Origin: a virus
DNA: 43,884 bases
Direction: 5' to 3' (one strand)
Virus record (IMG/VR): IMGVR_UViG_3300032087_000806
Span: 1 to 43,884 of that record
Below are positions 8,409 to 11,509 of the stretch, piece after piece. How positions within the stretch are numbered: position 1 is the first letter of the stretch; every line of letters starts with the position of its first letter. The notes beneath the pieces are model-generated. The model was given only the letters and a program-made list of their open reading frames with translations. It searched no databases and was not told the DNA's origin. The position numbers and the translations under genes were made by a program.

Positions 8409-8600
8409 TTAATGTTTGTATGCGTAGTCTGTATCAACTCCACAATCAACGCATTCTTTTTCTACTATTACTGTTTCTTTTGCAGAATTTTCTATTAACT
8501 TTTCACAATCATTACAAAATACAAAACCTACAAGATTTGTATTTTCTAAGGTATCAATGTTACAACTTCTGCAATAATCACATATTTGTACTTCTATCAT
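8409..8600 (-). CDS. Zinc-ribbon-like small protein
   Basis: This 63-residue protein has four cysteine pairs or near-pairs: CDYCRSC near residues 7-13, CNDC at about 29-32 and CVDCG at about 51-55. The spacing suits one zinc ribbon plus an extra pair. It overlaps the gene upstream by 4 bases (ATGA type). Small phage zinc-ribbon proteins often bind host transcription or translation machinery, but nothing here identifies the partner. Confidence 0.68.
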   Translation of the reverse strand: MIEVQICDYCRSCNIDTLENTNLVGFVFCNDCEKLIENSAKETVIVEKECVDCGVDTDYAYKH

Positions 8601-9043: not shown

Positions 9044-9447
9044 AACATCACCTCGCTTTCTGTATCTTGTTCTGTTCTACAACAACCACAAATGACTTTG
9101 CGTTCAAAGTATTCGGGGTATTTGTTCTTCATTTCTTGGAAACATGAGCCACACATAGCATAGCCACCACTAATCTGTTGCCCTGCTTTTGCCTCACGTT
9201 TAACCTCATCAATGTCATCTATCGTACAAGATAGATTAATTGGTTGAGTAGCATCAATACTAGAGTTACAAGCCATATCACATACCCATAAGTCATCAGG
9301 TATATCGCTATCTACTAGATGTGATATGAACTCAAATCCTAGTTCTTGTGCTTGTTTTTTGTTTTCCTCATAGTGCATGTGTGCTTGTACTTTTGCAACT
9401 TGCCTATGTTTTATCGGGTTAGGTATTACTAACCACGCTTCATACAT
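9040..9447 (-). CDS. Cysteine-rich early protein with two CxxC motifs
   Basis: This is a 135-residue product with an N-terminal alpha/beta region (WLVIPNPIKHRQVAKVQAH) and a C-terminal half containing CDMAC, CGSC at about 108-111 and CGCC at about 126-129. The last two pairs look like a zinc ribbon. AGGAGA precedes the ATG by 8 bases. The stop overlaps the next gene's start. Function unknown. Confidence 0.7.
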   Translation of the reverse strand: MYEAWLVIPNPIKHRQVAKVQAHMHYEENKKQAQELGFEFISHLVDSDIPDDLWVCDMACNSSIDATQPINLSCTIDDIDEVKREAKAGQQISGGYAMCGSCFQEMKNKYPEYFERKVICGCCRTEQDTESEVML

Positions 9448-9667
9448 TTGTTATCTCCTCTCTAAATGGTGAGAGTGCATACATCTTAGGTGTATGACCA
9501 CTCATCTTTGCAAATCTATTGTCGTTATCTGCTAGTGATACAATCTTATCTACCATACGAACTGCTTGTTCTTTGGTTACATCTGCATCAAAACGAAACT
9601 CAACAACAAGTTCGTTCTCATCTATCTTGTGTCCGTGTTGTACGAACTCATATACTTCAACACTCAT
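9440..9667 (-). CDS. Small early protein of unknown function
   Basis: This is a 75-residue product from the ATG at 9667 (MSVEVYEFVQHG), with AAGGA 9 bases upstream. It contains a beta-alpha pattern (ELVVEFRFDADVTKEQAVRM) and ends in FREEITNV. It overlaps both neighbours by a few bases, which supports it as part of the operon. No family recognised. Confidence 0.68.
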   Translation of the reverse strand: MSVEVYEFVQHGHKIDENELVVEFRFDADVTKEQAVRMVDKIVSLADNDNRFAKMSGHTPKMYALSPFREEITNV

Positions 9668-9911
9668 CACAATGTCCTTCCATAGCTTGTGCTATTACTT
9701 TACCTCTAGGATTAGATGCATCAACTTCGTTTAAGTCTATGCTTATCACGTTCTTGTCATGCCTTCTGCACCATACTTGTATTCCTGTTGGTGTAAATCC
9801 TACTTCGTTATCTTGAAACTCAGCAGGTGATACACTCTTCTCTGTCTTTGACCAATCAAACATACACTCTCTACAATGTATGTAAGATACAATGTCAGGT
9901 TTGTTAGCCAT
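9657..9911 (-). CDS. Small Cys/His-rich early protein
   Basis: This is an 84-residue product from the ATG at 9911 (MANKPDIVSYIHCREC), preceded by AAAGGA; an upstream ATG at 9944 lies inside a hairpin and has no ribosome site. Metal-binding candidates are HCREC at about 12-16, WCRRHDK in the middle and HCDEC at the C-terminus. It is the first gene after the structured noncoding block, so its leader includes that block if transcription comes from further upstream. Confidence 0.68.
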   Translation of the reverse strand: MANKPDIVSYIHCRECMFDWSKTEKSVSPAEFQDNEVGFTPTGIQVWCRRHDKNVISIDLNEVDASNPRGKVIAQAMEGHCDEC

Positions 9912-9931
9912 AATATCCTTTCGTAAATCTT

Positions 9932-10339
9932 GGTACTCACACACAACAGGGCTGCGTTGTGTGATGTATCACAGATGATATCACTTGTGTGAGTACCTTG
10001 ATAGGTAGTAGATAGCACGTACAAATGCATATTCTTACTCTTTTTGTTCCACTACCTATCAAGCTACCAACACGTAGCTTGAAGCATACAAGTATGAGAT
10101 ACTTTGTACTCGGCATACCTATCTACTTAGTTGCAACTAAGCAGGAAGCACTCGTAGTTCTGTCTTATATACTTCAAGCTACCTGCTTTCAGTTGTTGGG
10201 ATAACAGGGGATTAACCCAACTCTTACTTACAGATAGCTTTCCGACTAATGAGAGAGTTGCACTAGCCGTTGCGTTGTGATGGGTGGTGCTACGAAATAT
10301 TTTTTGCGTGTTAGAGTGTAACACCTAACCATCATTGGT
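9932..10339. ncRNA. Dense inverted-repeat block, candidate structured noncoding RNA or origin
   Basis: This 408-base stretch between two leftward genes has no credible gene and is packed with perfect inverted repeats: GGTACTCACACA/TGTGTGAGTACC (9932-9943 with 9986-9997), CACACAAC/GTTGTGTG (9940-9947 with 9956-9963), GTGAT/ATCAC (9961-9972), a 13-bp stem 9997-10009 with 10051-10063, CAAGCTAC/GTAGCTTG (10060-10067 with 10074-10081), GTAGCTTGAAG/CTTCAAGCTAC (10074-10084 with 10172-10182), AAGCAGG/CCTGCTT (10139-10145 with 10182-10188), GTTGGG/CCCAAC (10195-10200 with 10216-10221) and GTGTTA/TAACAC (10308-10313 with 10319-10324). Several stems share bases and exclude each other. A large ornate phage RNA (GOLLD- or ROOL-like in spirit) or a replication origin are both possible; the strand is not determined. 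Confidence 0.55.
10126..10141. repeat. Perfect 16-bp palindrome
   Basis: CTTAGTTGCAACTAAG reads the same on both strands with no loop. Lacking a loop, it suits a dimeric protein site better than an RNA hairpin. It lies in the middle of the structured noncoding block. Confidence 0.6.
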
Positions 10340-10480
10340 TTATCCAAAAGTGTGATTGTGTTCGTTATCAGCTTCCTGTCTAAACCTATGCCTAATGTAA
10401 TCATCTAGGCAAGTATCACACATGTAACTCTCATTGTCGTTAATAGTTACTTTGTGTTGCATACCATTGCACAAACACAT
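10340..10480 (-). CDS. 46-residue zinc-binding-like mini-protein
   Basis: ATG at 10480 overlaps the upstream stop (TAATG) and follows GAGGAGG by about 8 bases, one of the best ribosome sites in the window. The product MCLCNGMQHKVTINDNESYM continues with CDTC and ends in a His-rich EHNHTFG. CxC and CxxC are spaced like a small zinc knuckle. It follows a gene that also carries CxxC pairs. Function unknown. Confidence 0.7.
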   Translation of the reverse strand: MCLCNGMQHKVTINDNESYMCDTCLDDYIRHRFRQEADNEHNHTFG

Positions 10481-10974
10481 TACAGTTCCTCCTCACTTCC
10501 GTAACATTTGCACTCGCTTTTTGTAAATGGTTTGAACTTACAACCATTTATCCTTTTGCAATGTTTTGCGTTCATAAGTTCTCTCAATATGTATTGTCTT
10601 CTTTTGCGTTCTCTCATCTCTTGTGAGTTGTATAGTTCTCTTGCAGATTGTGTAACCTCAACAAATGAACCATCACCTAATTCAATCCAACCTTTGTGAA
10701 ATCTTTCAAGCATAGCATCACTATCAATCACACGACCACTAGGTTGCATTTGTAATTGCTTATCATCTAGCAAGTTAGTCTCTAACTCATTGAAGTTATC
10801 AAGTCCATCACGTTTGCATTGATAACATATCAAGTCTCTAGCTCTTGTGTTAGAACTACAGAACTTACATGACTTAGGAAACCTTTGGTAGTTATCTACA
10901 GCTCTTGGGTTTGAGAAGTCCATACCTCTCATACCTAAGTAAGGCTTACTAGATGTCTTATAACTCTTACCCAT
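10480..10974 (-). CDS. Zinc-finger-like early protein
   Basis: This is a 164-residue product with CKFC and CYQC at about residues 36-54, spaced like a four-cysteine zinc ribbon, a basic helical segment (EMRERKRRQYILRELMNAKHC) and a C-terminal cysteine cluster (CKRINGCKF, CKCYG). The ATG at 10974 follows AAGGAGAG. Basic helix plus zinc ribbon suggests nucleic-acid binding. A 35-base conserved element lies 67 bases upstream of the start. Confidence 0.72.
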   Translation of the reverse strand: MGKSYKTSSKPYLGMRGMDFSNPRAVDNYQRFPKSCKFCSSNTRARDLICYQCKRDGLDNFNELETNLLDDKQLQMQPSGRVIDSDAMLERFHKGWIELGDGSFVEVTQSARELYNSQEMRERKRRQYILRELMNAKHCKRINGCKFKPFTKSECKCYGSEEEL

Positions 10975-11100: not shown

Positions 11101-11280
11101 TTATAGATTTCTTTTCGCACTAAGTTTAAGTATTGCTTCGTAACCACATGTCCAACACCTCATGCAGTAATGCACATGAGACTTGACAAAGCTATGAACA
11201 TACAACTTACGCATGTTATCTTGTCTGCAATTAGCACACACGACTTGATGCTTACCTGTTTCAATATCTTTTACACTCAT
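11101..11280 (-). CDS. 59-residue zinc-ribbon protein
   Basis: ATG at 11280 to TAA at 11101-11103. The product contains CANC (about residues 15-18) and CMRCWTCG (about 39-46), the spacing of a classic four-cysteine zinc ribbon (CxxC-x20-CxxC). AGGT lies 9 bases upstream inside a 16-base sequence shared with the gene at 9043. The gene sits between two copies of the 35-base element, as a single-gene unit. A role in binding nucleic acid or RNA polymerase is common for such ribbons but is not shown here. Confidence 0.75.
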   Translation of the reverse strand: MSVKDIETGKHQVVCANCRQDNMRKLYVHSFVKSHVHYCMRCWTCGYEAILKLSAKRNL

Positions 11281-11478: not shown

Positions 11479-11509
11479 AAAAAAATAAGTGGGGGGGGAA
11501 ACCCCCCCC
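11479..11509 (-). terminator. Rho-independent terminator with a G8/C8 stem
   Basis: On the minus strand, eight G, TTT and eight C form a pure G-C stem, followed by ACTTA and seven T. It begins 5 bases after the stop of the 66-residue gene. A homopolymeric G/C stem is unusual and also a likely slippage or sequencing-error site. Confidence 0.85.

Follow-up and report, generated by a model that had tools for sequence, protein, structure and literature searches.

What kind of element is a gene-free block of inverted repeats in a phage genome, and does selection act on it as RNA or as DNA? The window analysed here, the whole 43,884-nucleotide stretch of the virus record IMGVR_UViG_3300032087_000806, holds such a block at 9932-10339, for which the original prediction was a large noncoding RNA, with a replication origin or a multi-site operator as alternatives. 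We find that 9925-10345 is almost certainly a structure-selected modular RNA and one instance of a modular family. This modular organisation, and the exchange of cassettes within it, is beyond what the first reading of the window could see.

A densely paired intergenic locus

The locus occupies the space between two genes that run leftward, a 46-aa open reading frame (ORF) that ends at 10340 and an 84-aa ORF that starts at 9911. Two of the stems described originally are perfect when read directly from the sequence: the 13-bp stem of 9997-10009 (CTTGATAGGTAGT) with 10051-10063 (ACTACCTATCAAG), and the 12-bp stem of 9932-9943 (GGTACTCACACA) with 9986-9997 (TGTGTGAGTACC). A repeat finder adds 9987-10012/10048-10073, 10071-10092/10164-10185, 9927-9943/9986-10002 and 10123-10133/10134-10144, some of these arms being mutually exclusive, as originally described. 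The comparison with shuffled controls that was proposed with the prediction gave a clear result: on RNA folding, the minus strand of 9925-10345 reached -144.6 kcal/mol (z -8.24), and 0 of 100 dinucleotide shuffles was equally good. Over 9900-10360 the z-score was -7.1 for the minus strand against -3.5 for the plus strand. By these scores the pairing is genuine, with a preference for the strand that encodes the neighbouring genes. The claim that the density of structure is far above that in the rest of the window holds mainly for the block of about 400 nt; in a whole-window scan of 150-nt windows with few shuffles, 10051-10200 on the minus strand was the most extreme of 584, but some other windows came near z -6. 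The block holds no gene, as first described, since the flanking ORFs at 10340-10480 and 9657-9911 lie outside it on the minus strand, and two small internal ORFs (65 and 76 aa) fall where close relatives carry other sequence of other length. The parts of the locus are as follows.

9925-10345, minus strand: whole structured RNA locus, intergenic, on the same strand as both flanking genes; z -8.24, 0 of 100 shuffles.
10340-10480, minus strand: 46-aa ORF upstream of the RNA, conserved in close relatives and containing Cys pairs (CLC...CDTC).
10278-10334, minus strand: hairpin A, with an outer stem of 6 bp, an inner stem of 8 bp and a near-invariant 24-nt loop (ACTCTAACAMGC...TTTC).
10243-10269, minus strand: hairpin B, with conserved GTGCAACTCTC in the loop and a variable stem, from the alignment and the sequences of relatives.
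10178-10238, minus strand: module C, with the root stem GCUAUCUGU/GCAGGUAGC, an AGUA/GAA internal loop (bulged-G-like), stems of 2 bp and 5 bp, and a CCCUGUU loop.
10071-10186, minus strand: hairpin D, an inverted repeat with the root GCAGGTAGCTTGAAGTATATAAG/CTTGTATGCTTCAAGCTACGTG and an exchangeable inner domain.
10123-10144, minus strand: apex of hairpin D, a near-palindromic inverted repeat (CTGCTTAGTTGCAACTAAGTAG).
9998-10062, minus strand: hairpin E, TTGATAGGTAGT/ACTACCTATCAA, with the extended alternative 9987-10012/10048-10073.
9932-9997, minus strand: hairpin F, ending in GCAGCCCTGTTG.
9657-9911, minus strand: downstream 84-aa ORF with Cys pairs, its ATG at 9911 behind AAAGGA.

Small ORFs with Cys pairs, zinc-ribbon-like, cluster around the RNA locus (window 8409-8600, 9657-9911, 10340-10480, 10480-10974 and 11101-11280), with no confident Pfam or PHROG matches where they were scanned; they are possible RNA-binding partners. 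Upstream of the RNA locus, the minus strand carries at 11491-11509 a perfectly paired G8/C8 hairpin with a T-rich stretch after it, strikingly like a terminator. No tandem repeat family was found in the window region.

Relatives and genomic place

The upstream gene is common to ten viral contigs. In close relatives the flanking DNA is up to 94% identical and the middle of the block is replaced: query positions 258-540 are unmatched in L001 and L003, where about 155 nt of different hairpins take their place, and L008 has pieces of the block in a different order. Relatives found through their terminase have arrays of hairpins in a neighbouring gap, built with the arm GTAGGTAGCTTGTAGCACATA, and a scan of 2.9 million viral contigs for this arm returned at least 120 stretches. 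Over 120 contigs of uncultivated phages possess the same kind of locus, most of them from one family with genomes of about 40 kb. The non-redundant set comprises 227 elements from 140 loci (arm-scan matches and others); it was gathered by exact patterns, so its counts of types and carriers are lower bounds and it overstates the conservation of the arms.

Most of the ~40-kb records have all their matches grouped in a single place, at a similar position, and the window's terminase is found at no less than 53% identity in 27 of the 30 records tested, the window counted among them. Where both were located in the ~40-kb relatives, the array is part of a leftward operon, on the strand opposite to the terminase gene and a few kb upstream of that gene. 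Of 168 elements, 148 share the strand of the gene that follows, and the next ORF starts a median of 139 nt past the last element. The gene downstream is not constant among the phages, and on this ground one candidate, a leader of one conserved downstream gene, was rejected; in L004 the 84-aa ORF is absent at the corresponding place and the next gene directly follows the RNA. Promoter-like sites near the locus numbered 9 against 15.0 in shuffles, not above chance, and the host's promoter type may differ. A small protein is often encoded after the array (window 9440-9667); its model, compared with the PDB for an RNA-binding fold, gave no match. A gene on the same strand downstream of the array matches the PHROG 284 exonuclease family.

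Three larger records (G019, G028 and G031, of 52-72 kb, with loci L226, L227 and L228) contain elements and lack both the family terminase and the next structural gene, and may represent another phage group or a transfer. At about 3180-3750 of L228, a single array hairpin is followed by a lengthy intergenic region rich in further apparent helices, for which Rfam gave no match.

A covarying scaffold

Along the RNA, AGCTATCTAT and GTAGGTAGCT root arms alternate, and each is able to pair with the preceding or the following arm, which is why the stems appear mutually exclusive. Long hairpins with variable tips stand between GTAGGTAGCT and the next AGCTATCTAT, and shorter modules between AGCTATCTAT and the next GTAGGTAGCT; module C is the commonest recognised of the latter. 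From an alignment of 23 module C variants, RNAalifold alone reproduces the structure drawn by hand. In this structure 97.6% of cells pair, and seven pairs show double changes, in 38 cells. The covariation score was 0.372 against 0.188 in shuffles, with 0 of 500 shuffles as high; this control ignores relatedness, and a slid-partner control that keeps it also gave values far below the observed one. A covariance model has a single match in the window, at 10178-10238 on the minus strand (77 bits, E 4e-17, with the window's own row in the training set), and detects one copy of module C in each of 20 related records out of 33 (E <= 3e-5). AGUA opposite GAA is the sequence signature of a bulged-G motif of the sarcin-ricin type, and from its sequence the internal loop of module C appears bulged-G-like. 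The window locus belongs to the array family by its root arms and by a module C with the covarying stem and the AGUA/GAA loop. A second module that looks to covary (TTGC-stem-TCCCYTTT-stem'-GCCRTTAGACCAAAAT) often precedes the root hairpin, as in L118, L141, L177, L166 and others.

Hairpin A is conserved in close relatives, with 97.9% of cells paired and compensatory double changes at three pairs. Its loop sequence is kept and its outer stem changes with compensation (TGATGG/CCATCA, TAGTGG/CCACTA, TAATGA/TCATTA). In hairpin B the stem is CGGCTAGTG/CATTAGTCG in the window and CGCTGAGTG/CACTCAGC in L008. Related phages thus show the compensatory change on which the RNA proposal had been staked, in module C and in hairpin A. 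Folding and compensatory change together support the candidate large phage noncoding RNA, which is putative as a transcript.

Selection on RNA rather than DNA

Palindromes confined to one locus per genome are usual for replication origins, and on this ground an origin, a packaging site or a multi-site operator, each acting at the level of DNA, might be considered. Among 61 distinct arm pairs, exceptions to Watson-Crick pairing at varied stem positions comprise 36 G.U and 5 A.C, with fixed wobble columns left out. Selection for a DNA palindrome would be blind to the difference between the two, so the excess of G.U points to RNA. The sense strand was more stable than the antisense strand in 22 of 22 arrays (the window and 21 of 21 relatives' arrays tested), a comparison that is partly circular for the relatives, whose sense was set by an arm consensus that includes wobble pairs; the window's was set by gene direction. 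For the inner domains alone the contrast between sense and antisense energies was weak (51 vs 38, p 0.10) and is not counted as evidence; perhaps pseudoknots, which lie outside the folding model, account for this. The pseudoknot-like and bulged-G-like motifs are themselves features of RNA. We therefore give a DNA-level element hardly any credence, and the origin and operator alternatives of the original prediction lose ground to the G.U asymmetry and the orientation with the flanking genes.

Tips are exchanged as cassettes

The tips of the long hairpins fall into at least 94 inner types among the 227 elements, 43 of them singletons, and the Chao1 estimate is about 150. The modules of one array differ from one another. 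Where element pairs from different contigs had alike 40-nt flanks on both sides, 27 had different inner domains and 9 had the same, a ratio inflated in favour of exchange by the prior collapsing of exact duplicates, which leaves the 27 cases themselves valid. In the clearest example, terminase identity is 99.2% between the phages of L001 and L003, whose tips differ, and 65.4% between those of L001 and L040, whose tips agree at 48 of 48 nt. An assembly artefact arising from shared 21-mers was considered and rejected, as six contig pairs from different metagenomes have identical elements together with their 40-nt flanks. Inner domains have been swapped between phages as cassettes bounded by shared stem arms. 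No other RNA locus is known to us that trades whole domains as cassettes on a constant stem in an otherwise nearly identical genome.

The window's own hairpins have counterparts of this kind. The inner domain of hairpin D is common to L180, L109 and, more remotely, L125, with an apex that is near-identical in L180 and different in L125. The apex of hairpin E, with TGCATTTGTACGTGC, is found in L008 on a different stem. The GCAGCCCTGTTG motif of hairpin F (CAGCCCTGTTG in relatives) is kept at the same place in L001, L003 and L004, where the stem is unrelated (GCTACCTCTAC/GTAGAGGTAGC).

One tip type, seen in relatives, occurs in three different stem contexts. Its 56-nt core has 16 pairs, including a crossing helix of 5 bp, and its 12 variants are 100% paired, with double changes at four pairs. 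The core is consistent with a pseudoknot; its crossing helix is invariant and adds no covariation, and so rests on complementarity. In every match whose context was read the core lies inside an array, and this includes ten contigs found by the core alone, all of which have it between array arms; the core therefore belongs to the array system.

Two readings bear directly on this variability. The first, and the leading alternative to the reading favoured below, is a cis-acting intercistronic element for the processing, stability or translation of a polycistronic early mRNA, whose hairpins would act as cleavage sites for RNases, as barriers to exonucleases or in the control of translation; tips would be free to vary if structure alone matters. 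The intergenic position, the strand shared with the downstream gene, the closeness of the last element to the next start codon and the lack of a nearby promoter above chance all agree with it. We nevertheless judge it rather unlikely, because the tips keep sequence and not just shape across phages (median identity within tip types 91%), because the next gene is inconstant and because there is usually one locus per genome, not many. The second reading, which we regard as improbable, is that the hairpins are selfish or recombinogenic cassettes, comparable to the stem-loop cassettes of T4-type phages: mobile palindromes that spread by copying from one phage to another and reshuffle modules without benefit to the phage. 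It would account for exchange within the limits of the arms, for the occurrence of one and the same cassette in distant phages and for elements in the three contigs outside the terminase family. It does not explain why the elements are not dispersed but sit at one locus, at a similar position, in ~40-kb genomes, nor why the scaffold covaries and is strand-biased and gene-oriented.

Comparison with known RNAs

The family is absent from everything searched. At gathering score, Rfam 15 covariance models gave 0 matches in the window, in agreement with the original statement that the block could be matched to neither ROOL nor GOLLD, and 0 in 149 kb from 16 relatives; E-value searches of Rfam returned chance-like matches only, far below the cut-off. 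The inner domains gave none above the cut-off against known RNAs. No cultured phage resembling the locus was found with 50,697 phage records searched, one search giving chance-level matches only, nor any such plasmid among 72,556, and no description of it was found in the open-access journal literature.

In another 81 kb of relatives the sole Rfam match at gathering score was a tmRNA-like 80-mer adjoining one array. This 80-nt look-alike of the tRNA-like domain of tmRNA occurs at L234:5215-5294 (G016:27214-27293) and at G033:14188-14267. It scores 52.4 bits, above the Rfam cut-off, and directly follows the root hairpin of the array; ARAGORN calls nothing there. Its long stem has a UCCCUUUU loop, as in other array modules. 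Matches that are tRNA- or tmRNA-like were found in 12 of 52 related records, and there were no tRNA genes in the window or at the loci of 12 relatives.

ROOL and GOLLD are large ornate RNAs of phages and prophages (PMC12286853). Like them, the locus is phage-encoded, several hundred nucleotides long and heavily structured, with a putative pseudoknot and no assigned function, and GOLLD also has one conserved and one less conserved half. Both differ in being frequently near tRNA genes, of which the window has none, and in having one conserved fold, whereas here a fixed scaffold without an Rfam match carries at least 94 exchangeable tip types. The window locus is both bigger and more unusual than a look-alike of ROOL or GOLLD would be. 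An RNA-only assembly comparable to their homo-oligomeric cages, or a packaging RNA ring, in which the RNA would multimerise through modules that dock via kissing or palindromic loops, would make sense of the recurrent self-complementary apices (TTAGCTAA, ATGCAT, TTGCAA, CTGCAG), the bulged-G-like loop motif and the nearness of the terminase. Such a cage or ring requires conserved contact surfaces, however, and these modules are hypervariable in number and type; the terminase, moreover, is on the opposite strand and in another operon. We consider this reading highly improbable.

The PeSLs of T4-type phages are stem-loop regulatory cassettes with an early promoter, dispersed at many gaps. The arrays resemble them as intergenic stem-loop cassettes exchanged among related phages, and differ in that there is usually one locus, promoter-like sites are not above chance and the tips are complex RNA domains. 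A further comparison is with type III antitoxin RNAs (ToxI) and the pseudo-ToxI array of phage phiTE (PMC3475682, PMC8860590). Serial structured RNA units, a putative pseudoknot and a possible neutralisation in trans of a host ribonuclease are points of likeness. ToxI units, in contrast, are tandem near-identical pseudoknot repeats with a cognate endoribonuclease gene downstream; here the units are mutually different, on a common root stem, and no such gene was recognised beside the window array. The scanned neighbours in the window gave no Pfam or PHROG match to a toxin. The cabRNA of staphylococcal phages is a trigger of CBASS (PMC10686824). As a structured phage RNA targeted by host immunity it would offer a parallel that accounts for selection for change, and it differs in being transcribed from terminase subunit genes. 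The cabRNA is not known to be modular.

A possible function in display

Conservation of tip sequence, together with exchange on a constant scaffold, would be the expected outcome of recognition in trans by host-specific partners. We tentatively favour, as a possibility that falls short of probable, a display of exchangeable RNA decoys or baits that would engage RNA-binding factors of the host, which might be ribonucleases or sensors of its defence. Weighing against it, the inner domains matched no known RNA above the cut-off, the analysis turned up no partner protein, toxin or defence system, and the place between co-directional genes near the following start codon would also fit a cis-acting element. 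In the more specific form of a display rack, which we advance with greater reserve, one locus with a constant root-stem scaffold would present domains from a shared pool of about 150 types, exchanged to disable changing host factors. The RNA would be transcribed together with the leftward operon and processed or folded into a multi-armed form. Its arms would present compact domains, at least one of them probably a pseudoknot, that occupy host RNA-binding proteins. Swapping could proceed by homologous recombination or strand annealing in the arms of about 21 bp. In the ensuing arms race the bait would change and the scaffold stay constant, giving rise to hypervariable tips. The bound proteins would most likely be defence ribonucleases or RNA sensors, as with the pseudo-ToxI repeats of phiTE against ToxN. 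This phage sets a precedent for countering a defence ribonuclease with RNA mimicry: it escapes the type III system ToxIN by RNA-based antitoxin mimicry (PMC3475682).

Were it no more than a cis element, the locus would still illustrate with unusual clarity how RNA domains shuffle under recombination, and its pool of tips offers dozens of new folded RNA domains to solve. If the arrays do display decoys or baits, the same pool is a ready list of probes for undiscovered RNA-sensing or RNA-cutting defences, and the display rack, if true, would be the RNA equivalent of anti-defence islands at the protein level and of cassettes for antigenic variation.
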